This document shows, piece after piece, positions 1-11,167 of a stretch of 33,416 nt of DNA. The first letter of the stretch is position 1. Every line of letters begins with the position of its first letter. A program made the position numbers and the translations under genes. Source of the DNA: Oscillospiraceae bacterium (lineage in GTDB: Bacteria; Bacillota; Clostridia; Oscillospirales; Oscillospiraceae). The stretch spans positions 1 through 33,416 of the forward strand of contig WRBE01000026.1 in the NCBI GenBank assembly GCA_009779845.1, in the 5' to 3' direction. The notes beneath the pieces were generated by a model. The model worked only from the letters and a program-made list of their open reading frames with translations. It ran no database searches and was not told the DNA's origin.

Positions 1-3000
1 ACGCCTTCTAGCGGAAGCTCAGGCGCCCAGCCGGCGAACGTGAACCCGTCACGGGTCGGGAGATCCGCCTCTGCGATGGCAGCTATGGTGCCACCGTCCG
101 CCACTGTCGCAGGCGGCGTGAACTCTCCAGACCATGCCCCGCCAACAAGCGCCCAGGTGATCGTGTGATCTCCAGATACCAGTGGCTCCCATACCGCGAC
201 AAGTGTCGTGTCTGCATATAGTGGTGTCGCAAAGTCAAAGAGTTCGAGGCGTGCTGCGCCCCGCTCATTCAATATCAGGTGCCCTTCCGTCTCGCGATGC
301 CAGCTCTGGAAAACATAACCCTCTCGGGTTGGCTCAGGTAGCGGCTCGTCAACTGTCTCGCCAACAAGAATTGTCTGCGGCGGGATAACCGCAGAGTCCG
401 TATCGGGGTCATTGTCGGGGTTGAGGTCGAAGATCACCGTTATTTCCTCAGCCGCCGGGGTAAATACCCATTGCCCGGTGAACACCACATCCTGCCTAGG
501 CATCGTGAACTCGCCGCCTTCGTCAACTGTTGCGTCTGTCGTCGTCCAACCACTAAACGCCCATGTACCCGGTACGCTCTCGTGCGTTGTCTCCGCAGTC
601 TCCAACTTGGGGGCTACCGTTACGGTCGTGCCCGTCTGCGCTTCGTGGTTCAGTGTCGATGGGTCAGCAGGTGTAAAGCTCACAGGAGCCAACGTGCCTG
701 TTACCGTGTAACGCACCTCGTACATGGCGGGATTAAGCATATTGTAAACTTCGTCGCTGGTCATGGCATTCCAGAACACCTTCACGTTGTCGAACTGGGC
801 GTTAGAGTACGGATCGCCGCCGTAGGGCGAGTAGCCCAAGGTGCCAAACAGGTCGATTCCGAATTGGGCAAATGTAAGCATATCGGTACGCTCAGAGCCG
901 ATTCTCTCGCCGTCACGATACAGCCGTACGCGGTTCCCTTCCATCACGATGGTGAAGTTCGTCCATACATTTATGGGGTTGGCACCGGGCACAGTTATCG
1001 ACCGCTGGGTGGGGTAGTCGTTTAAGCCCTGAGCGAAATGTACCTCGTTCGAGCGCAGGCGCAGATACATGCGGCTTAGTATGTCACGGTTGCCCACATG
1101 GAATTCCATGCGGTTGCCAGTGGCCGCCCTGTTGAACACATCGAATGAAATCGTCGCATTTTCTCGGTTGTCAAAGAACCCGATGGGGAACTGAGCAAAT
1201 GCCGGAGCCGTGCCGCCGGGCAGGTCAAGCACCCGGCCCCTGTCAGTGACTGCGGGGGCGGTTGCGTTACCCCGGGCGAACCCGTGGTTGCCGTTACCGC
1301 TTACATCGGTGATTCTGCCGTCCGGCATATTGTCGTCAAACGTCCAGTGGAGGGCAGGGCCTTCACTAAGCGGTATATCCGGATACGGCCCCCATTGCGC
1401 CATAATCGCATCGAATTCCGTCCTAGTGATCGGAATGATTCCGCCGTGTTTGGCTCCGTGGGGCATTCTGAACTCTCCGGCGGGAACCGGAGTGAACTGC
1501 ACATTGTCCCCCTCAAGCCGATCCGTCACAAAGGGGATGAACCCCGGGTTACCAGCAGCGGCGTATTGGTCAAGCATGACGACCCACCGATCTTCCTGAA
1601 CCTGCCTGAACATGGCGGGGCCTTCCACACCCGGAACATCACCGATATTGCTGGTCACCGGTGCCCACAGGCCTTGGGGCCTGTCGGCGGCTTCCATGAT
1701 CATGCGCTGGCTGTCTTCGTTCTTCGTCAGCCGGAAAAACCTGCCGTCATCGCCTTGCGCCATTGTGGTGTCGATACGGCGGGCATTGTTTTCACCAACG
1801 AACAGTTCCGGCTCTGAGAAGTTAACGAAATCCCGGGTTCTTACCACCCAGACACCGTTGTTCCAGCCCCGTTCAGCGGTGGGTGCTGAGAAATACACCA
1901 GATATTCTCCCGTATACGGGTCGTAAATCGCTTCCGGTGCCCAAGCACAACCCATGTCGTCAGAAGCCACTTGCACTTTGCGCTGCGGGCTCCAATTCAC
2001 AAGATCATAAGATTCCCACACCATGATGCTCCGACTGCCGCGCTGGTTGAAGTTGCCCCAGTTACTTCCGCCTGCGAGGCCACGGAAAACGTTCAGGTCG
2101 GTGGCAATGAGGTACACTTTGTCGTTGCCAGGAATCCGCAGCATGTGCATGTCACGCAGACCGCCGGTTCCCATGTGGGATGTAATCACAGGGCGATTTC
2201 CGTTTAGCTCACGCCAGTTCAGCCCGTCTTCGGAAATGGCAAAGTGAACCTGCTCTTCCTCATGCAGGCCGAAAATCGATCCCCGGAAGAACGCATAGAG
2301 GTAGCCGCCATGTACATCTAGGTCTTCAGGACAAGGAGCAGCTGTCCGAACCGTTGTGTTCATCACGGCGTTTGCCGCTGCGCCGTGGTACGTGGCGGTG
2401 GCGGTCAGCACCACAGGGCCACCTTCGTTGCGGTTAACAATACCCGCACGCTGTACGACATCACCTGCGAGGTCGTGAGCGGTTACTAGGTTTTCATTTG
2501 ACGATTGCCATGCCACGGTTGATCCGTTGGGGCCAACCAATGGCAGAGTGATATGTTCGATCAGTTCCACCGGAACCTGTGCCCGCATCATATTTGCATC
2601 GCCCGTTGCGCGTGCCTGCGGGGTGTCATCACCCACAACTATCGTCAACACCGGATTGCGGTATTGCGGCAGAAGCAGGCGGTCAGGAGTCATGTAGAGC
2701 ACCGGCATACCGTCAAAGCCCCAATGCACCACCCGCAATAGCGTGTGCCGCCCATAATGGTCACTTTCAGTGGCACTGTCCCGGGCGTGGAACACAATGA
2801 TATCCCGGCCGAACTCGTCTTGGATAAACGATGCGTGTCCGGTTGCGTACTGACCTTCCACCCGGTCACGGGTGAGAATCGGGCGTTGTGTGCGTAACCA
2901 GTGGTCACTATTCAAGGGGTCTCGGTTTTCTGGGTTCATGGGGTCGCCTGTAAATTCCAACACACCGATGGAATACATCTCACCAACACCAGAGCCGCAG

Positions 3001-6000
3001 AACATGATGAATTCACGTTGCCTGCCGTACTCGTCTGCTGGGCCTCGGAGCATGAATGCGCCCTCGTCTATGGAACCCGTCCAGCCGAACAGCGGCTCGT
3101 TGATCTGAATGGGCTCGCCCAGTATTCTGGCAGAGTTCGCCGGGTCTACTGGTGCAATCATCTGCACCGCACGGGAATTAAACGTCTGGTTCGGAGGCGA
3201 ATGAATCGGCGTTTCTGGCCGCTGAGACCACATGTAGTACGACACGCCGTCAATTTGGAAGTAGGTCATGTCTATGGCGAAGCCGTAAGGTGCGGCGATG
3301 CGATTGGCATAATTCGCCACATCAAAGGTGGTGTTGGGGGCATGTCCGCCGGTTGCGCCTACTGATTTCGTGACCATAACCGGCGGGTTCCAGTCGTCCC
3401 GATTCATGGGGTCGCCGCCGTCACGGAGAGTCATGATGTGCGACTGAACCGTATCCCAGCCCGTGCCGATGGCGAAGAGCAGCGAAAGCCTACCGTCAAC
3501 TACGTGTAGCTCCGGCGCCCATTTCAGGTAGCGCTCACAGATGAAGATACTGCGCTCTTCCGCACCGGCAAGTCCCTCAAGGGTGCGCGAACGGCGGATA
3601 TTGATGCGCTCTTGATACCCGGAACCGTCACGTATACGGTTGATATTTCCGACAGGAGGGTGTGCAGTGTCATAGGTGGCGACGAAATAGAAATAATAGT
3701 CGTCATCTTGGGCACCTTTGTAGCGGATGATGGTGGGGTCGGCACGATCCATGATAAACGGCCAAGGCCAATCCCCCACTTGGGCCACGCCCGGAATCTG
3801 ATACACGCCCGGCGTGTTCCAGTCGATGGCATTGAAGACGTTTTCATCCCAAACCACAGGCACTTCGCCTGTGGAGGTGTCTGTGTAATGAGCGGTAAGC
3901 CATGGCAGCTCATCAAATGCGATGGGCGTACCGACTGGGGCGGTAATGTCTTCTACGGGGTCTATATGGGTGTTTCGAGTTTCACCGTACTTATGCAAGA
4001 CAAACTCCGCTTCTTCTCGGGTAAGCTCGAACATCTGGCTGGGGATCGCCCCGAGAACCCCTTGGGAATCGGGTTGCGGCGTGCGCACTTTCGTTGTGCG
4101 GGCACCGTAGGAAGTGAACACTATCCAATCAGCCGTGGATGCCTCATGCTGGGTCGCGCCCACCATCCACGAAATGATATAGCGATCAAGATCAGAGTCG
4201 AAAGCGACTTGGGGCTGGGCAATGCTTTGGCCTGTCACGAGTTGCACAAGGCCCTCTGCATCACCGTGCCGCTCGAAGCGTTCTAGGTCTGTCGTTGTGT
4301 AGAACAATAATTGCCCGCTGGCGGTGTCCGTGTTGTTGTTATGGTTTGTACGCTGACCCACAAGTCCGATTGTACCGTCAGACATGCGGAACAGCCACGG
4401 GTTTATCATGCCCCAAGAGGTTCCCGATGTGTAGTTGCGGCGGGGGAACGCAGCAGAGATATAGGGCGTACATTCGGTGAATAGTATGGGGTGGTTGAAA
4501 TTCAGCGGTGTCATCACACCATCGATTTCCATGGCTAAGTGCAGGTTCCTGTTGCGAACCTGATGCCCTGCGAACCTGTTCGTGGTGTAGACCATCACTT
4601 CAGCGGCGGGCACAGGCAGGATGATTCTCGTGAAACCCCGTGTCTCGGTGCCGATTTGCGCAGTCAAAATCGCCTCACGCTCGTATTCGCCGCCTACAAT
4701 GGTGCGTCCGTCTTCAGCGAGAACATCCGCAGGGGACGCACTCCAAATAACGGCCTGTCCACGGGATGTCGTGGGCAGAACAAACCCATGGGGAAGCCTT
4801 GCAGGCAATGAAATTTCAGAGAATGGTGAATCGCCAACAAAGACCTCCACGGTTACCTCACGATACTGTGGCAACAGGTAACGGTCGGCTGTCATGTAGA
4901 GAATCGGATAGCCGCCGTAGCCCCAATGCACGGTACGGAAACCGGTGTGTCGATAAGAGCCGCCTGTCCCGCTGTGGAACACAATGACATCACGGCCGAA
5001 TTCGTCTCTGACGAAGGTATTATGGCCCGGCCCAGGCTGCACCCAGGGTGCCGTTTGGGGCCGTTCAGGCGGCTGTAAATGTCTGGTGGCCAACACAGGG
5101 AAGTTCCCCCTCGTCCAATTCCCCGGATCGAGCAAATGCGCAACACCGTATTCAGCATCTGTTCCGGGCCGGGCTTCCATGAAGGTGATAGCGTATGTCT
5201 CGTCGGTGCCGCTTCCAGAGACAGCCATGAATATCCGGCCTTCCGGGCTTCTCAGCACAAAGGGCCCTTCATCAACAGGGGAGCCGGGAGAAACATTGGC
5301 CCATGAAGGCATCGGGCGGGTCAATATAACGGGGTCGGAGGTGAGCACCGTCGGATCAGTGGGGCAGAAGGTGGCGATGGTAAGATTGGCATCGCTTTCA
5401 TTGAAGGGCGCACCGCCGCCAACATGTCGGGCAGACCAAATGTAGTAGTGGACACCGTTTTCATACAGATAGGACATGTCCAGAGATATGCCCACACTGT
5501 CCCCGGCGGCGTTTGCCGTAAGGGGGGTAACGCCGTCTTGCTGTAAAATCCAGTAGGGGCGGCTCCAATCATCACGGTTCAGGGGGTCGCCGTCCGCTTC
5601 AAGTGTCATGATAATGCTCTGCACATTACCCCAATGGTGGTTCGGTGATATCGCAGAAAGGATCCGCAACTGACCGTCTATCACTTGCAGTTCCGGTGCC
5701 CAGAAATTGCCGCCATTGGGCTCATCTGTTGTCCAGAAATTGGGACGGAAAATTCCGCTGCTGCTGTGGAAATCTCTGTTAAAATCCTGCCAGCAGTAGA
5801 GGGTCACATCCGGTGCTGTGGCAAGTCCCGATAGGGTTTCCGAACCACGAAGCTGGAACACCCGCTGGAACCCATAGGGCATTACAAATGTGTCACGGGT
5901 GGCGATGAAATAATACATGCCTTCAAATAAAACCACAGACGGATCGGCCCGTGCCGGTATAATCGGGAAAGGATAATCCGAAACCGCCGCTTGACCACGG

Positions 6001-7838
6001 ATGGTGAAGAACCCCTCTTCCGCTGTGTCTATAGCCGCAATGTCGCCTTCGTCCCATACGATTGGGATGTCGTTGGTCGATGTATCGGTGTAATAAGCCC
6101 GAATTGTCTCGGGAAGCGCATCTTGTGAGAACGTGTCACCCACGCCAAGCTCAATCACAGCATCAATAGGCTCTATGCGGTAATTTTTAACTTCAATGAG
6201 CCGTCTCGACAGGTATTGCGCCTCGGCGGCGGTTACCGAAAACCCGCAGGAAACCACGCCACCGTCAACATTCTGTCCGGGAAAAGCGCGGGCACGGGTG
6301 GAATCTGCCGCCGGTGTGAAGGTTGTCGTATTCGCAGGCTGCCTGAACGTGGGATTGTAACCCGGCATGTCCCACGATGCAGCCGAACTTTGGCGTACTT
6401 GTGCTCCATTCATCCAAGTTATGTAATATTGCCCGTTTTCATAGAAAACCTGCGGACTCGTGATATGCTCGCCTGCGGCGACAGTTACTAAGCCATGCCA
6501 GTCGAAATTGATAAGGTCATCCGTTGTCCAGAAGGAAAGCTGGCCCATATCCGCTGGTTGTCCCTCCTGCCCACCAAGCCCGAATGCATTTTGCGCAACC
6601 ACACCGATTGTGCCGTCAGACATGCGGAATATCCACGGATTGAGCATGACCCGCCGGTCTAAGCGAAAGTCTTGAAGCCAGTCGGAACCGATTCCGGCTG
6701 GAAACCCGCGTTGCGCATTGGCGTAAAGTACGCCCAAGTTAAAGTTCAGCGGCGTAACTTCCCCGGCAATTTCCATGGCAAGATGCATCGACGCACCCCG
6801 CCGCAAACCGCCCATTGCCGTGGTGTATGCGAAAACCGCTCGGGAATCAGGCCCCAGTATCGTCACCGCAAAGGTACGTGACTGGCTGTCGGTGGTTGCC
6901 GTAAGCACCACCTGCCTGTCGGTCGCACCTGCAACTATGGTTCTGCCATCGGCAGCGAGAACCGCCGGGTCAGACGCAGTCCAGGTCACAGCTTCACCAA
7001 TAACCGTAGTAGGCAACTCAAAATCACCGGGCAATACGTTGGGGATTTCCACCAAGTTGATAGCGGGAACGTGTTCCGCATACAGGCTTAACACCTCTTG
7101 GCTGGACAGAGCGCGGTTATACACCCGAATATCATCCACTCGGCCTCTGGCAAATTCACCGCCACCGCCCCAGTTGGCCCTGCCAATTTGCACCACAGGA
7201 GACCCTCCCAATATGGATGTCAGCGGAGCGTTGCCCGCAATGGTCGTAACCTCATTGCCGTCTATGTAGATGGTTGAAGAATCCCCTCGGTGAACCACCA
7301 CGGCATGGACCCATTCATTGAGGGGCATGTGCGGGGCGGTAGCCGTGGAGCTGGGCGCACCACGTCCAGCAAGGAAACGCTGATACATCAGGTTGTCAGA
7401 ACCCGCCCCGCCGTAACCAGAGAGCAAGCCCACGTAATGCTCGTTCTGCCACGTTTGCGGGTTTGCGTTCGGTGCGGCGAAAAACCACCAAGAGGCGGCT
7501 CTGTCAGTGCGGTTGAACCACAGGGAGGCGGTATATTCCGTAAGCCCTGCAAGCAGGGGCGCACCGCCTTCGCCCATAAGGGATAACCATCTGCCCGATG
7601 TAAGCACAGCGGCACGACCGCCGCCCACGCCTTCGTCAAAGGCACCCCCCGGCCACGTTCCGTGCTGGGTTGCTTGGCCGACTTGGGGCGTTGTGGTATT
7701 ATTGTCGAAATCCAAGTGGAAAATCAAGCCGTCCTCCGGTGCGGCATGGGCTGGCATAGCCGGGAACGCCGATAGTACACCTAGCATCATAACTACTGAT
7801 AGAATCATTGCGATACTTTTCTTTGCGGATTTTAGCAT
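1..7838 (-). CDS. Giant secreted multidomain GH43 glycoside hydrolase (3' end outside window)
   Basis: The frame is open for at least 2,612 codons and leaves the window before any stop. The start is the ATG at 7838, preceded by AAGGAGAAG. Residues 1-31 form a signal peptide ending near Ala-His-Ala. Visible order (approximate residues): LamG 38-245; atrophied Ig-like (aBig) 256-324; propeller-like module X1 326-553; Big_4-like 553-622; GH43 624-986; aBig 988-1073; X2 1074-1289; Big_4-like 1291-1356; GH43 1360-1726; Ig-like 1726-1829; GH43 1829-2163; LamG 2163-2373; SHIRT-like 2373-2455; InlB-type repeats from 2461. Each GH43 keeps an early Asp (ADPS, ADPT, RDMH), a WAPE motif and an acid Glu (DEGPF, DEGAF, VEGPA). 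X1 and X2 have LNPW/INPW where Asp is expected and look non-catalytic. GH43 enzymes cleave arabinan, arabinoxylan or related side chains; the substrate here is not determinable. A C-terminal anchor may lie outside the window. Confidence 0.9.
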   Translation of the reverse strand, partial: MLKSAKKSIAMILSVVMMLGVLSAFPAMPAHAAPEDGLIFHLDFDNNTTTPQVGQATQHGTWPGGAFDEGVGGGRAAVLTSGRWLSLMGEGGAPLLAGLTEYTASLWFNRTDRAASWWFFAAPNANPQTWQNEHYVGLLSGYGGAGSDNLMYQRFLAGRGAPSSTATAPHMPLNEWVHAVVVHRGDSSTIYIDGNEVTTIAGNAPLTSILGGSPVVQIGRANWGGGGEFARGRVDDIRVYNRALSSQEVLSLYAEHVPAINLVEIPNVLPGDFELPTTVIGEAVTWTASDPAVLAADGRTIVAGATDRQVVLTATTDSQSRTFAVTILGPDSRAVFAYTTAMGGLRRGASMHLAMEIAGEVTPLNFNLGVLYANAQRGFPAGIGSDWLQDFRLDRRVMLNPWIFRMSDGTIGVVAQNAFGLGGQEGQPADMGQLSFWTTDDLINFDWHGLVTVAAGEHITSPQVFYENGQYYITWMNGAQVRQSSAASWDMPGYNPTFRQPANTTTFTPAADSTRARAFPGQNVDGGVVSCGFSVTAAEAQYLSRRLIEVKNYRIEPIDAVIELGVGDTFSQDALPETIRAYYTDTSTNDIPIVWDEGDIAAIDTAEEGFFTIRGQAAVSDYPFPIIPARADPSVVLFEGMYYFIATRDTFVMPYGFQRVFQLRGSETLSGLATAPDVTLYCWQDFNRDFHSSSGIFRPNFWTTDEPNGGNFWAPELQVIDGQLRILSAISPNHHWGNVQSIIMTLEADGDPLNRDDWSRPYWILQQDGVTPLTANAAGDSVGISLDMSYLYENGVHYYIWSARHVGGGAPFNESDANLTIATFCPTDPTVLTSDPVILTRPMPSWANVSPGSPVDEGPFVLRSPEGRIFMAVSGSGTDETYAITFMEARPGTDAEYGVAHLLDPGNWTRGNFPVLATRHLQPPERPQTAPWVQPGPGHNTFVRDEFGRDVIVFHSGTGGSYRHTGFRTVHWGYGGYPILYMTADRYLLPQYREVTVEVFVGDSPFSEISLPARLPHGFVLPTTSRGQAVIWSASPADVLAEDGRTIVGGEYEREAILTAQIGTETRGFTRIILPVPAAEVMVYTTNRFAGHQVRNRNLHLAMEIDGVMTPLNFNHPILFTECTPYISAAFPRRNYTSGTSWGMINPWLFRMSDGTIGLVGQRTNHNNNTDTASGQLLFYTTTDLERFERHGDAEGLVQLVTGQSIAQPQVAFDSDLDRYIISWMVGATQHEASTADWIVFTSYGARTTKVRTPQPDSQGVLGAIPSQMFELTREEAEFVLHKYGETRNTHIDPVEDITAPVGTPIAFDELPWLTAHYTDTSTGEVPVVWDENVFNAIDWNTPGVYQIPGVAQVGDWPWPFIMDRADPTIIRYKGAQDDDYYFYFVATYDTAHPPVGNINRIRDGSGYQERINIRRSRTLEGLAGAEERSIFICERYLKWAPELHVVDGRLSLLFAIGTGWDTVQSHIMTLRDGGDPMNRDDWNPPVMVTKSVGATGGHAPNTTFDVANYANRIAAPYGFAIDMTYFQIDGVSYYMWSQRPETPIHSPPNQTFNSRAVQMIAPVDPANSARILGEPIQINEPLFGWTGSIDEGAFMLRGPADEYGRQREFIMFCGSGVGEMYSIGVLEFTGDPMNPENRDPLNSDHWLRTQRPILTRDRVEGQYATGHASFIQDEFGRDIIVFHARDSATESDHYGRHTLLRVVHWGFDGMPVLYMTPDRLLLPQYRNPVLTIVVGDDTPQARATGDANMMRAQVPVELIEHITLPLVGPNGSTVAWQSSNENLVTAHDLAGDVVQRAGIVNRNEGGPVVLTATATYHGAAANAVMNTTVRTAAPCPEDLDVHGGYLYAFFRGSIFGLHEEEQVHFAISEDGLNWRELNGNRPVITSHMGTGGLRDMHMLRIPGNDKVYLIATDLNVFRGLAGGSNWGNFNQRGSRSIMVWESYDLVNWSPQRKVQVASDDMGCAWAPEAIYDPYTGEYLVYFSAPTAERGWNNGVWVVRTRDFVNFSEPELFVGENNARRIDTTMAQGDDGRFFRLTKNEDSQRMIMEAADRPQGLWAPVTSNIGDVPGVEGPAMFRQVQEDRWVVMLDQYAAAGNPGFIPFVTDRLEGDNVQFTPVPAGEFRMPHGAKHGGIIPITRTEFDAIMAQWGPYPDIPLSEGPALHWTFDDNMPDGRITDVSGNGNHGFARGNATAPAVTDRGRVLDLPGGTAPAFAQFPIGFFDNRENATISFDVFNRAATGNRMEFHVGNRDILSRMYLRLRSNEVHFAQGLNDYPTQRSITVPGANPINVWTNFTIVMEGNRVRLYRDGERIGSERTDMLTFAQFGIDLFGTLGYSPYGGDPYSNAQFDNVKVFWNAMTSDEVYNMLNPAMYEVRYTVTGTLAPVSFTPADPSTLNHEAQTGTTVTVAPKLETAETTHESVPGTWAFSGWTTTDATVDEGGEFTMPRQDVVFTGQWVFTPAAEEITVIFDLNPDNDPDTDSAVIPPQTILVGETVDEPLPEPTREGYVFQSWHRETEGHLILNERGAARLELFDFATPLYADTTLVAVWEPLVSGDHTITWALVGGAWSGEFTPPATVADGGTIAAIAEADLPTRDGFTFAGWAPELPLEG

Positions 7839-8129
7839 TTTTCTTCTCCTTTTATGGTGGATTTTAATAGCGGACTTTTCAAATTGCACAAAACAGTTTT
7901 CCCCTCCCAAAAATTTCCTTCCTGCTCCTTAACATTTAGACTTGGTTGTCATTACATACATAACAGACCGTGCGGTCTGTCAAAGTTTTCATATACATTT
8001 TACATGTGTTATTTATATTTCGCAAGCAAAACTACTGTTCATTATGCATTTTGCCGATATGAACAATTACTATGTTGCAAAATAGTATTGTTAACTAAAA
8101 ACTAATCTCCCTGTATTACGGCCTCAAGT
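7839..8129. promoter_or_regulatory. Divergent control region between the GH43 gene and the ABC cluster
   Basis: This AT-rich stretch separates two divergent transcription units and holds no convincing gene. It contains the GH43 ribosome binding site, an 18-bp TetR-like palindrome at 7963-7980 and, on the minus strand, a TTGACA at 7983-7978. The best -10 candidates for that -35 (TATGTA) lie 15 or 19 bases away, so the GH43 promoter is only tentative. Confidence 0.5.
7963..7980. promoter_or_regulatory. TetR-family-type operator palindrome
   Basis: ACAGACCG-TG-CGGTCTGT is a perfect inverted repeat with 8-bp arms. Palindromes of the form AGACCG-N2-CGGTCT are typical TetR-family operators. It overlaps a minus-strand TTGACA (7983-7978), which would suit repression of the GH43 gene. 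It lies about 150 bp upstream of the promoter of the divergent ABC cluster. No regulator gene is present in the window, so the binding protein is unknown. Confidence 0.65.
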
Positions 8130-8158
8130 TTGACAACAACCGATTTTATCGTTATACT
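8130..8158 (+). promoter_or_regulatory. Sigma-A promoter of the Cys-rich/DUF4418/MacB cluster
   Basis: TTGACA (8130-8135), a 17-base spacer and TATACT (8153-8158) closely match the housekeeping consensus. The start codon follows at 8197. An inverted repeat, ACCGATT (8139-8145) and AATCGGT (8160-8166), spans the spacer and the -10 element and could be a second operator. Confidence 0.8.
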
Positions 8159-8196
8159 GAATCGGTAATGTACTTTTTATATTGAAGGGCGAACAT

Positions 8197-8526
8197 ATGG
8201 AACAGCGCAACAACATCCTTCATATGCAGAAACCGATTGCAATCCTGGTTATGTTTGCAATCGCTCTTGTCTTGTTCTCTTCTCATCAGGCCGCCGCTAC
8301 AAGCCCCATGCCACAATTAGACCCCTGTTGTGTGGACGAGCTGGTGTTATTGGAAGAGTTACCCTGTTGTGAAATCTCTGAGGTGGCCGGTTGCTGTTTT
8401 GCGCTCTACCCGCCCCCTATGTGTACATATTGCTTTGTGGCGGCAACAATAGACAATGCGGTTTGTATCAGCCTGTTTCACTATAGAGATTGTTGCAACT
8501 TTATTTTTGAACCTCCCAAAGCGTAG
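8197..8526 (+). CDS. Small exported cysteine-rich protein, unknown family
   Basis: The product is 109 aa. An N-terminal hydrophobic segment (about residues 13-34) looks like a signal peptide or membrane anchor. The mature part has four Cys-Cys pairs (in DPCCVDE, LPCCEIS, AGCCFAL and RDCCNF), a CTYC motif and one further Cys. The ATG at 8197 has AAGGG upstream; an in-frame TTG at 8182 is less likely. It is the first gene after the promoter at 8130 and precedes a DUF4418 gene and a MacB-like transporter, so it may be that system's partner or cargo. The Cys pattern would suit metal binding or disulfide chemistry, but no family was recognised and function is inference. A hairpin follows the stop. 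Confidence 0.65.
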   Translation: MEQRNNILHMQKPIAILVMFAIALVLFSSHQAAATSPMPQLDPCCVDELVLLEELPCCEISEVAGCCFALYPPPMCTYCFVAATIDNAVCISLFHYRDCCNFIFEPPKA

Positions 8527-8535
8527 GTGAAATAA

Positions 8536-8582
8536 GCTAGGTTCTTTTCGTGCGGAACCTAGCATTATTGCGCCCTTTTTTA
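8536..8582 (+). terminator. Hairpin after the Cys-rich gene, possible partial terminator
   Basis: GCTAGGTTC (8536-8544) pairs perfectly with GAACCTAGC (8555-8563) around a 10-base loop. The T-rich run begins only about 10 bases later, so termination is probably weak. It could set the ratio of the first gene to the three genes downstream. Confidence 0.45.
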
Positions 8583-8630
8583 AGACCTTAACTTGAAAAA
8601 CATTACACTTTTTTGGAGGTTCTATTTAAA

Positions 8631-9320
8631 ATGAAAAAATTTGCAATCTTACTTATCATACTTGGCGTACTGGTTGTTGCGGGTGTGTCTTTAGGCGTGT
8701 TCTCTTACACCGATTATATTTTTGAACATGTTGCTACGGGCGAACCCGTTGAACCGGATTGGCGGCCCGGTGAAATTCCGTTGCATCTCGACACGGTAAG
8801 AATCATCGCCAGCATTGGCGGGGCTGTTAGCCTGCTTGGACTCATCCTGTTTCTGGTTGGCCACGCAAAAGAAATCAGGAAACAAGACATCATCGGCATC
8901 CTTTTCGTTGTGCTGGGTTCACTGACAATGCTTGGTTTCTTGACGGGCATGTTCTACCCCTGTTACCACACAATGCCAGCAGCGCCTCGACCCATGCGCT
9001 GTATCTTTACAATGAGAGTTCTCAGCGGCGTAGCCAGCATGATTGGCATTTCAGGTGTTTTGATGCTTGTGTTCAGAAAAGTAAAAGCGATTGCCTTAGG
9101 GCTGAACATGGCAGTCGTTCTGGCTGGCATCGTGTTCCTTTTGATTCCAACCGTGGCGACAGGTGTTTGCGTCGTCCATAGGTGTGTGGATGGGTTCCTT
9201 CCCTTTTCTATTATCATGGGCGGCGTAATGACGGCTGTATCTTTGGTCAGCGTGTTCGTGCTGGCTAAACAGGAGGCGGATGAGGATGAAGAAGACGCGG
9301 AAACCTCTCACAACATCTAG
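8631..9320 (+). CDS. DUF4418 family multi-pass membrane protein
   Basis: The product is 229 aa with about six membrane segments: an N-terminal hydrophobic helix, a pair near residues 55-80 and 85-105, then three more towards the C-terminus. The C-terminal tail is acidic. Extracytoplasmic loops carry FYPCYHT, PMRCIF and GVCVVHRC, the Cys pattern of DUF4418 proteins. From memory, DUF4418 genes usually sit beside FtsX-like permeases and LolD-like ATPases, as here; their biochemical role is unknown. The ATG at 8631 is preceded by GGAGG (8615-8619). The 3' end overlaps the permease gene by 41 bases, which suggests translational coupling. Confidence 0.8.
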   Translation: MKKFAILLIILGVLVVAGVSLGVFSYTDYIFEHVATGEPVEPDWRPGEIPLHLDTVRIIASIGGAVSLLGLILFLVGHAKEIRKQDIIGILFVVLGSLTMLGFLTGMFYPCYHTMPAAPRPMRCIFTMRVLSGVASMIGISGVLMLVFRKVKAIALGLNMAVVLAGIVFLLIPTVATGVCVVHRCVDGFLPFSIIMGGVMTAVSLVSVFVLAKQEADEDEEDAETSHNI

Positions 9321-10500
9321 GATTTCCTACCATAACCTCAGCGGAAAACCGGGGCGGACGGCAGCACTCATTCTTGTCGTTGCCATCATGGCCTTTGCCC
9401 TGTTCGGCGGGGCTGTGCTGTCACAGAGTTTGGACAACGGGATCAACAGCTTAGAAGCGCGCCTTGGGGCCGACATTGCGGTGGTGCCACTGGGCAGTGA
9501 GTCTGATTATGAAAACGTTCTCTTAGCCGGCAGTCCAGTTAATTTCTACTTTCACAAAGATGTTGAACAACAAGCAACCGTACCGGGTGTCGCCCGTGTT
9601 ACAACACAGCTTCATCTGGCGACACTGGCAGATGCTGCTTGCTGTACGACAACGACACAGGTCATCGGCATTGATTACGACACGGACTTTGTCGTCACAC
9701 CTTGGATTGCACACTTTATCCAGCGTCAAATCGGGGACGGGGAGGTGATTGTGGGCAGTGACGTGATGATCGGCCCCAACAATACCATCACATTCTTTGA
9801 TATCTCTCTCCATGTTGCCGCACGGCTTGAGCGGACAGCGACAGGCATGGACTCGTCTGTGTTCGTGAATATGGATACCGCACGCTCACTTGCAACTGCG
9901 GCTGAAATCGGCTATGACGATCTTGGCGGTATCAACGTTACAGATGCAGCCTCCGCCGTGCTGGTACGGGTTGAGCCGTATTATGAGGTTGACGAAGTGT
10001 TGCAGCGCATTCGACACGCCGTGCCGGACGCTGGCCTTGTAGCAAGCAATGCCGTGTTTGCCAACATTTCTGCAAACTTGAGTTTCTTCACGGGCATGAT
10101 TGGTGCCATCACCATCGTGCTCGGTATCATGGCGGTGCTAATTTTGGCAGTGCTGTTCTCGGTGATCGCAAGCGGTCGGAAGAAAGAGTTCGCCATCTTG
10201 CGTATTCTGGGCGCAACCCGGAAAAAACTGGGTGGCATCGTGCTTATGGAAGCTTTGGTCATCAGTGCCCTAGGGTCCGCATTCGGCATCGTGCTCGCTT
10301 CCCTCGTGGTCTTTCCTTTCGGGCGAAGCATTGGCACACAGATGGGTATGCCGCTCCTCTTGCCTCACGTTTTAGAGTCCTTGCGGCTCTTGGCCGTGGC
10401 CTTGGTGGTGGCACTTGCCGTTGGCCCGTTATCCGCTGGGTATTCCGCCTTCCGCATTAGCCGGGCAGAGACCTACACAACGCTGAGAGAGGGGGAGTAA
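9280..10500 (+). CDS. MacB/FtsX-type ABC transporter permease
   Basis: The product is 406 aa with the MacB topology. One N-terminal helix (about 27-49) is followed by a large extracytoplasmic domain (about 50-265) and three C-terminal helices. The segment after the second helix has the FtsX signature, with KKEFAILRILGATRKKL as the cytoplasmic coupling region. The external domain has adjacent cysteines at 121-122 (ADAACCTTT). Such permeases do not usually import; they couple ATP hydrolysis to work on envelope proteins or small molecules. GGAGG lies just before the ATG at 9280. The gene overlaps the DUF4418 gene and ends one base before the ATPase gene. The substrate is unknown; the Cys pair matches the Cys-rich neighbours. 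Confidence 0.88.
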   Translation: MRMKKTRKPLTTSRISYHNLSGKPGRTAALILVVAIMAFALFGGAVLSQSLDNGINSLEARLGADIAVVPLGSESDYENVLLAGSPVNFYFHKDVEQQATVPGVARVTTQLHLATLADAACCTTTTQVIGIDYDTDFVVTPWIAHFIQRQIGDGEVIVGSDVMIGPNNTITFFDISLHVAARLERTATGMDSSVFVNMDTARSLATAAEIGYDDLGGINVTDAASAVLVRVEPYYEVDEVLQRIRHAVPDAGLVASNAVFANISANLSFFTGMIGAITIVLGIMAVLILAVLFSVIASGRKKEFAILRILGATRKKLGGIVLMEALVISALGSAFGIVLASLVVFPFGRSIGTQMGMPLLLPHVLESLRLLAVALVVALAVGPLSAGYSAFRISRAETYTTLREGE

Positions 10501-10501
10501 A

Positions 10502-11167
10502 ATGAACATCAAAGTACAGAATCTCACAAAAGAATACCCCCAAGGCGAGCAGATGTTCGGCGCACTGAAAGATGTCAACTTCTCCATCTCCAGTGGTGAG
10601 TTCATCAGTATTACCGGTCGCTCTGGCAGCGGAAAAAGTACACTGCTTAATATCATGGCGGGTCTCACACTACCTACATCGGGCAGTGTGCGCTTAGACG
10701 GAAAGGACATTTTCGACCAGTCTGACGAAGCCCTTTCCCTCTATCGCAACGCCACCATCGGCTGTGTGCCGCAGCAGTCTAGCATCTTGGCAACCCTCTC
10801 TGTGCTCGACAACGTGCGGCTCCCCTTCTATCTGGCCAAAAGGGAGGGCGATTCTGTGGAGACGGCCCGTGCGCTACTCAAGCAAGTCGGCTTAGAAAAA
10901 CAGGGCGGAAAACTGCCCAAGCGTCTTTCCGGCGGCCAACTCAAGCGCGTGGCTATCGCACGGGCCATGCTCAACCGTCCCCGCTTCCTGTTCGTGGACG
11001 AGCCCACCGGCGACCTAGATACCGAAACCACCGAAGAAATCATACAAATTTTCCGCCGCGTGGCAGACGAGGGGACGGCCATTTTAATGGTCACCCACGA
11101 GTTGGAGACCACAGAGTACGCTGACAAGCGGTTTCATATGGAGAACGGTGTTCTCAACCAAAAGTAA
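10502..11167 (+). CDS. LolD/MacB-type ABC transporter ATPase
   Basis: The product is 221 aa, the usual length for this family. Walker A is GRSGSGKST (39-47), the Q-loop Gln is at 91-92, the signature LSGGQLKRVAIARA is at 142-155, Walker B FLFVDE is at 162-167 with D-loop GDLD after it, and the switch His is at 199. All residues needed for ATP hydrolysis are present. It energises the FtsX-type permease encoded one base upstream. A purine-rich GAGAGGGGGAG, overlapping the permease stop codon, serves as ribosome binding site. It is the last gene of the cluster; a hairpin follows about 25 bases after the stop. Confidence 0.93.
   Translation: MNIKVQNLTKEYPQGEQMFGALKDVNFSISSGEFISITGRSGSGKSTLLNIMAGLTLPTSGSVRLDGKDIFDQSDEALSLYRNATIGCVPQQSSILATLSVLDNVRLPFYLAKREGDSVETARALLKQVGLEKQGGKLPKRLSGGQLKRVAIARAMLNRPRFLFVDEPTGDLDTETTEEIIQIFRRVADEGTAILMVTHELETTEYADKRFHMENGVLNQK

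Follow-up and report, generated by a model that had tools for sequence, protein, structure and literature searches.

The plus strand of contig WRBE01000026.1 of an Oscillospiraceae bacterium (assembly GCA_009779845.1) carries, at 8631-11167, three genes for a DUF4418 membrane protein, an FtsX/MacB-type permease and an ATPase, whose products are tentatively read as a single complex that exchanges thiols at the expense of ATP and keeps an iron- or sulfur-handling partner reduced, a reading that is given somewhat less than an even chance. (The window, to which coordinates refer, is the whole 33,416-nucleotide stretch that was analysed.) A small cysteine-rich open reading frame (ORF) precedes them in series on the same strand, the four genes spanning 8197-11167; a preliminary description of this DNA had given just this gene content, including a Cys121-Cys122 pair in the permease, and all of it is confirmed. 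Gene order, protein families, the predicted fold, the conservation of six cysteines and the recurrence of certain neighbours in other genomes are matters of observation.

The permease (P0003, 406 amino acids, 9280-10500) has an FtsX C-terminal domain (PF02687, 50.5 bits against a cut-off of 25.5). Its structural model places helices at residues 24-62, 256-299, 314-355 and 364-405 and a domain at about 63-255, that is, four transmembrane helices in the type VII ATP-binding cassette (ABC) architecture. By fold this model is similar to LolE, to MacB and to a type VII permease of Streptococcus pneumoniae. The 221-residue ATPase (10502-11167) is of the LolD/FtsE type by Pfam and NCBIfam; its best NCBIfam match, LolD at 196.9 bits, lies below the equivalog cut-off of 307.75, which sets the machine apart from LolCDE proper. 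In its four transmembrane helices, the large domain that follows the first of them, the FtsX C-terminal domain and the LolD-type ATPase, the machine resembles the MacB/LolCDE/FtsEX superfamily at large, but differs in having a dedicated DUF4418 membrane partner and a conserved vicinal pair of cysteines. Type VII ABC machines use ATP to act on things outside the membrane and not to pump them across.

The cysteine pair (codons at 9640-9645) lies in the predicted extracytoplasmic domain. Its conservation was followed in 39 loci other than the window, 33 found through DUF4418 searches and six (L119, L121, L126-L129) through permease searches. Twenty-seven of the 33 hold a full-length permease related to that of the window and, together with the six and the window itself, make up a set of 34 (L065-L068, L072 and L108 are without a full-length permease in the fetched stretch; L104 and L129 are short contigs). 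Left out of the counts are G011 (L041), G101 and G219 (L084, L085), which score below the Pfam cut-off, and G594 and G500, which have an internal stop codon. All 34 have the second cysteine and 31 have both; in L038, L083 and L129 the pair is replaced by His-Cys. Within this material, alignment A2 (other rows 22-49% identical to the query) retains Cys122 in 28 of 28 rows and Cys121 in 26, and six further DUF4418-linked permeases have the second cysteine in every case and the pair in five. Cys-Cys is also found in all of the best 120 of 360 matched database homologues (one being the window's own), and both columns are invariant in an alignment of 104 of those homologues with the query (105 rows), although, being the closest of the 360, these are less independent. 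By way of control, such loci also supplied 22 full-length FtsX-type permeases of the FetB/FetC kind, and none of these contains Cys-Cys. Five plasmid records match the permease and three were examined; the 25%-identical permease on a Methylocella tundrae plasmid (L120, 11962-13194) has no DUF4418 gene nearby and no Cys-Cys. Judged by these alignments, the pair is a hallmark of the family, and the cysteines of the machine are retained across many anaerobes; the preliminary description had named loss of its conservation as the outcome that would speak against a role, and conservation is what was found. Loss of cysteines may be coupled between the two membrane proteins: a DUF4418 protein without one of its four conserved cysteines occurs in two of the three His-Cys loci, and among the other 31 only the one-hairpin protein of L119 lacks any (Fisher p about 0.016, by hand arithmetic and for loci that are not independent).

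Close homologues of the window permease carry the name Treponema (P0013 at 65% identity, P0046 at 52%, with L119 also noted). Such closeness points to horizontal exchange of the machine between spirochaetes and members of the Clostridia. Thermoclostridium caenicola and Sporobacter termitidis are also represented among the database homologues. DUF4418 proteins P0005, P0006 and P0007 and permeases P0010, P0011 and P0016 come, pair by pair, from contigs of the same sizes (48235, 4971 and 6722, respectively), suggesting that the members of each pair adjoin one another; two contig scans of genomes with permease P0003 and the DUF4418 profile A1 found nothing.

The DUF4418 protein (P0002, 229 amino acids, 8631-9320) scores above the gathering threshold of PF14387 (48.6 bits against 27) and is modelled as six helices in three hairpins. 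Its cysteines, which the preliminary description had placed in loops, are nearly invariant: in an alignment of 38 proteins Cys111 is kept in 37 rows, Cys124 in 38, Cys180 in 37 and Cys185 in 38, the four being distributed over two hairpins. In the model the conserved cysteines lie at or beside helix ends that would face outward by the positive-inside rule. The window protein is like other members of PF14387 in keeping these four cysteines and unlike those aligned from genomes in its third hairpin. That extra N-terminal hairpin is a diverged duplicate of the hairpin after it, the first to carry cysteines (z of 6.2, 9.3, 6.3, 8.4 and 2.2 in five long-form proteins); it has no cysteine, and His52, invariant in the five, aligns with Cys124 or with a position beside it. 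(Between hairpins two and three of these proteins there is no clear resemblance, with z of 0.4-4.1.) Three-hairpin proteins are rare: besides the window, four metagenome proteins were found, and among 400 genomes of the family, its own included, 11 match profile A1, with no match in the other 10 extending to the first helix of the N-terminal hairpin. The aligned relatives from genomes have two hairpins and the protein of Treponema saccharophilum has one (67 amino acids), so that DUF4418 proteins exist in one-, two- and three-hairpin forms. DUF4418 occurs in 6 of 99 relatives (5 above the cut-off) and, across the class, in 23 of 391 genomes (21 above it), the window's own genome being counted in both. 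For a relation to DsbB/VKOR no support emerged: no PDB sequence matches the A3 profile at E <= 1, and in a fold search with the modest-quality model DsbB/VKOR was neither among the 50 rows shown nor in a further comparison. The best rows there are four-helix bundles such as dystrophin-complex, CD20 and TARP chains, at levels of similarity rated common.

The company that DUF4418 genes keep lends support to a part in thiol redox or metal handling. Genes for P19, FTR1, FtrD, flavin mononucleotide (FMN)-binding or fumarate-reductase-like proteins are present in 15 of the 39 loci, and relatives of FTR1, P19 and FtrD occur together in eight, which bears out the link to the p19 iron locus that the preliminary description had drawn. 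An NMT1-type substrate-binding protein and/or nitrogenase component 1, NifH, NifX or cysteine-synthase-type genes are found in 16 of the 39 (the binding protein in 13 of these 16, nitrogenase component 1 or NifH in 11). Eight of the 39 have neither iron/flavin nor nitrogenase-like/sulfur genes. Treponema saccharophilum and Fusobacterium vincentii are named examples of loci whose neighbours were read. (Labels were assigned by phmmer with 29 representatives, each ORF being counted by its best label, and the loci L126-L129 were tested with fewer families. Nineteen of the 29 representatives were Pfam-scanned, those for cysteine synthase, CGS and SsuC being outside that scan and the radical-SAM one falling below the cut-off. 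Some positions tagged "NifB-like" were also those of substrate-binding proteins, and counting by best label applies there too.) Substrate-binding proteins near DUF4418 share a cysteine of their own: a motif of one kind (LC, DC or NC, mostly LCxAP followed by GxF) is present in 12 of 14, the carriers being in L107, L069, L081, L082, L077, L039, L072, L102, L119, L038, L083 and L073, and was not matched in two (L073:11974 and L079:4520). SsuA-type proteins are not known to have such a cysteine.

Two kinds of described locus invite comparison. The FetMP-FetABCDEF or P19-FTR1-FtrD cluster likewise has type VII ABC permeases and cysteine-bearing or redox proteins beside an iron permease (PMC10783030, PMC8238504). 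In the Campylobacter jejuni P19/Fet cluster the job of the ABC transporter is stated to be unclear, and it has been suggested that the FetBCD ABC proteins provide reducing power, with FetE/F as the relay (PMC10783030); P19 clusters that include genes for FMN-binding proteins are described mostly from Gram-positive bacteria (PMC8238504). The DUF4418-linked permease differs in belonging to a separate Cys-Cys clade, to which the FetB/FetC-kind controls do not conform, and the window has no match to P19, FTR1 or FtrD. The fuller DUF4418 loci, on the other hand, resemble the isethionate locus of Rhodobacter capsulatus, which serves as the comparison for the nitrogenase-like set of isethionate (Isr/Nfl) and methylthio-alkane (Mar) reductase loci (PMC11423573). 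This resemblance is one of gene content, and the window, unlike those loci, has none of their genes: no representative of the nitrogenase-like/sulfur group is matched in it. With no match to FTR1, P19, FMN-binding proteins or nitrogenase component 1 in the genome either, the machine here is a stand-alone version.

The small ORF at 8197-8526 encodes P0001, a 109-residue protein whose start resembles a signal peptide by eye (a predicted Sec signal, with cleavage guessed after residue 34). Eleven cysteines among 75 predicted mature residues, at positions 44, 45, 57, 58, 66, 67, 76, 79, 90, 99 and 100, form four Cys-Cys pairs, a CTYC and one single cysteine. This excess is not due to chance (P = 1.7e-9 for at least 11 of 109 at the window's cysteine frequency of 0.8%), and the pairing is mildly unusual given the content (when the predicted mature part is shuffled, 709 of 20000 trials reach four pairs). 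Its frame has the best coding score of the six, yet a weak one (0.044 bits per codon against 0.14-0.25 for five neighbour genes). P0001 is alone in having four Cys-Cys pairs among 1776 mechanically called ORFs of 60-170 amino acids from the loci read. As the preliminary description had surmised, it matches no family in Pfam or NCBIfam (E <= 1), PHROGs or PADLOC. A word-based search of 5.77 billion proteins retrieves P0001 itself and no other; just six candidates shared words with it, so fast-evolving relatives could escape such a search. No relatives were found in viral contigs or phages, the best PDB match has an E of 0.57, and a search of 60 related genomes gives 17 rows at E <= 1, of which 16, uninspected, are in 12 other genomes (best E 0.0029); the row in genome G008 is on a different contig from the DUF4418 gene of that genome. 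P0001 is an orphan as far as these searches reach. A 69-residue cysteine-rich ORF with Asp/Arg repeats, unlike P0001, precedes the DUF4418 gene at L108:7711-8427, where the stretch read has no permease.

P0001 is separated from the machine by more than its 104-base gap on the same strand. Upstream of the small gene is the consensus promoter of the preliminary description, a near-consensus sigma-70-type sequence (TTGACA-17-TATACT, 8130-8158, plus strand) that matches at 11 of 12 positions, whether or not it is used (a scan of the region gave 8 promoter-like sites against 4.0 expected from shuffles). Just 3' of the gene lies a hairpin (8526-8574) followed by six T, seen by eye (8576-8581), which looks like an intrinsic terminator and could also be an attenuator: the predicted folding energy of 113 bases is -29.4 kcal/mol (z -2.66, equalled in 3 of 200 shuffles), and a simple terminator scanner did not report it. 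Rfam gave no match. With this hairpin directly behind it, the first gene may be largely a separate transcription unit, and the proposal that all four genes share one promoter becomes doubtful. No promoter-like site was found between 8582 and 8630, and one with 9 of 12 matches is at 8631-8659, within the DUF4418 gene. The first 41 bases of the permease gene overlap the end of the DUF4418 gene.

How the machine might work can be sketched as follows. The type VII (MacB/LolCDE-like) permease, the ATPase and the DUF4418 protein would assemble as one complex, with the outward placement of its cysteines taken from models and the positive-inside rule; with these cysteines and ATP, it would carry out thiol-disulfide exchange on the outer side of the membrane and so hold a partner that handles iron or sulfur in the reduced state. 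In relatives this client would be either the iron-uptake (P19/FTR1/FtrD) or flavin system or, where the locus is of the nitrogenase-like sulfur-assimilation kind, its cysteine-bearing substrate-binding protein. In the window's own genome the likeliest client would be the adjoining P0001, perhaps made in excess over the machine because the terminator-like hairpin separates the two. With six conserved cysteines predicted to face outward, and redox, iron and sulfur genes as neighbours, thiol exchange is the most economical reading. The thiol- or metal-handling envelope machine of the preliminary description accordingly gains from conservation and context, while the part that makes P0001 its partner or cargo has adjacency and cysteine content to point to.

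Several findings weigh against ATP-driven thiol exchange, or against P0001 as its client. The neighbourhood counts are raw, with no chance rate behind them. Coupled loss of cysteines holds in two of three cases because L129 keeps all four DUF4418 cysteines despite its His-Cys permease. The DUF4418 model is built on 5 sequences, with a mean predicted local distance difference test score (pLDDT) of 72.6. The literature searched contains no biochemical data on any member of a DUF4418 machine; it names DUF4418 in one paper, as a table entry, and PF14387 is not mentioned. Searches of the 95%-complete genome at E <= 0.001 gave no match to FTR1, P19, FMN-binding proteins or nitrogenase component 1 (the genome-wide search did not extend to FtrD and NifH), and its three NMT1-family matches are all without the cysteine motif; with the usual companions undetected, the client in this genome is a guess. 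The preliminary description had named the absence of P0001 homologues beside DUF4418 elsewhere as evidence to the contrary, and none was found in the 39 loci (3441 mechanical ORFs of at least 40 amino acids, phmmer E <= 1) or in the wider searches. A scan of the loci for P0001-like ORFs (50-170 amino acids, at least 7 cysteines, a hydrophobic start, same strand, within 3 kb of DUF4418) yielded only DUF4418 genes themselves, frames that overlap with longer ORFs and, in L108, a single nearly free frame that has no Cys-Cys. Nor did a relative surface, in a protein search that did not take in the contigs themselves, from metagenomes with 65-73% identical machine proteins.

The main rival to thiol exchange is metal transfer, in which the cysteines, with Met122 and often a histidine, would be ligands for iron or copper that is handed over by an exported carrier and let go on ATP hydrolysis, P0001 being a secreted metal-binding protein. 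DUF4418 proteins have Met122 in 35 of 38 rows and a histidine after Cys124 in 20 of 38, features that fit metal binding and redox work equally well. The eight loci with P19, FTR1 and FtrD relatives and the cysteine content of mature P0001 also fit a metal carrier, but the 16 sulfur/nitrogenase-like loci are not concerned with metal uptake, and machines with the type VII fold seen here are not known to pass metals through the membrane; metal transfer is considered doubtful. That the lipoprotein- or drug-handling work of MacB/LolCDE-type transporters is done here, with cysteines that are purely structural (disulfide), is improbable. The model does match LolE and MacB, and the ATPase comes closest to LolD, if under the cut-off, but iron, flavin or sulfur neighbours in 31 of 39 loci are foreign to such a task, the long ORFs of the window, looked over by eye, include no evident MacA-like gene, and vicinal cysteine pairs, as present here, are rarely structural.

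Other alternatives concern P0001. That it is a chance neighbour, its promoter, ORF and terminator-like hairpin making up a transcription unit unrelated to the ABC machine, comes close to an even chance; this covers P0001 alone and can be held together with thiol exchange by the machine. The intervening hairpin, the lack of a counterpart in any of the 39 other loci and the failure to find a relative all speak for it, to be set against the shared strand, the 104-base gap, the lack of a promoter-like site within 50 bases upstream of the DUF4418 gene, and the prediction that P0001 and the machine are both cysteine-based envelope proteins. P0001 could also be a bacteriocin-like secreted peptide with a MacB-type transporter for its export or for immunity, the arrangement found in lactococcin-972 clusters. 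The order of genes (predicted exported protein, hairpin, membrane protein, FtsX permease, LolD-like ATPase) has that look, and the ATPase scores 160.8 bits on TIGR03608, under the cut-off of 254.85. However, P0001 belongs to no Pfam or NCBIfam family, the permease is of the DUF4418-linked Cys-Cys clade and such a peptide accompanies it in 0 of 39 other loci, which makes this a very improbable account. A bacteriocin assignment for P0001 is unsupported, since it matches no bacteriocin family in Pfam or NCBIfam at E <= 1.

On the other side of the small gene, a perfect 18-base palindrome (ACAGACCGTGCGGTCTGT, 7963-7980) that resembles a TetR-type operator by eye lies between it and a divergent giant gene. 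The latter, open-ended on the minus strand at 3-7910, encodes a surface protein with a signal-peptide-like start, read for 2636 amino acids without a stop, whose repeated blocks resemble LamG and GH43-type glycosidase domains by eye.

At its widest, the ATP-driven thiol-exchange reading would make DUF4418 and the Cys-Cys permease an undescribed branch of type VII machines with ATP-coupled thiol chemistry outside the membrane, serving two nutrient pathways that are not related, P19 iron uptake and nitrogenase-like sulfur assimilation; the DUF4418 protein would be a modular thiol carrier of one, two or three hairpins, and the version described here would be self-contained, with a secreted eleven-cysteine client of its own. 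As a whole this is thought unlikely. The recurrence of one cysteine-bearing ABC module in P19-type iron loci and in nitrogenase-like sulfur loci nevertheless points to a chemical task that the two may share, in thiol or redox work on the outer side of the membrane; that idea can be tested with a few cysteine changes.

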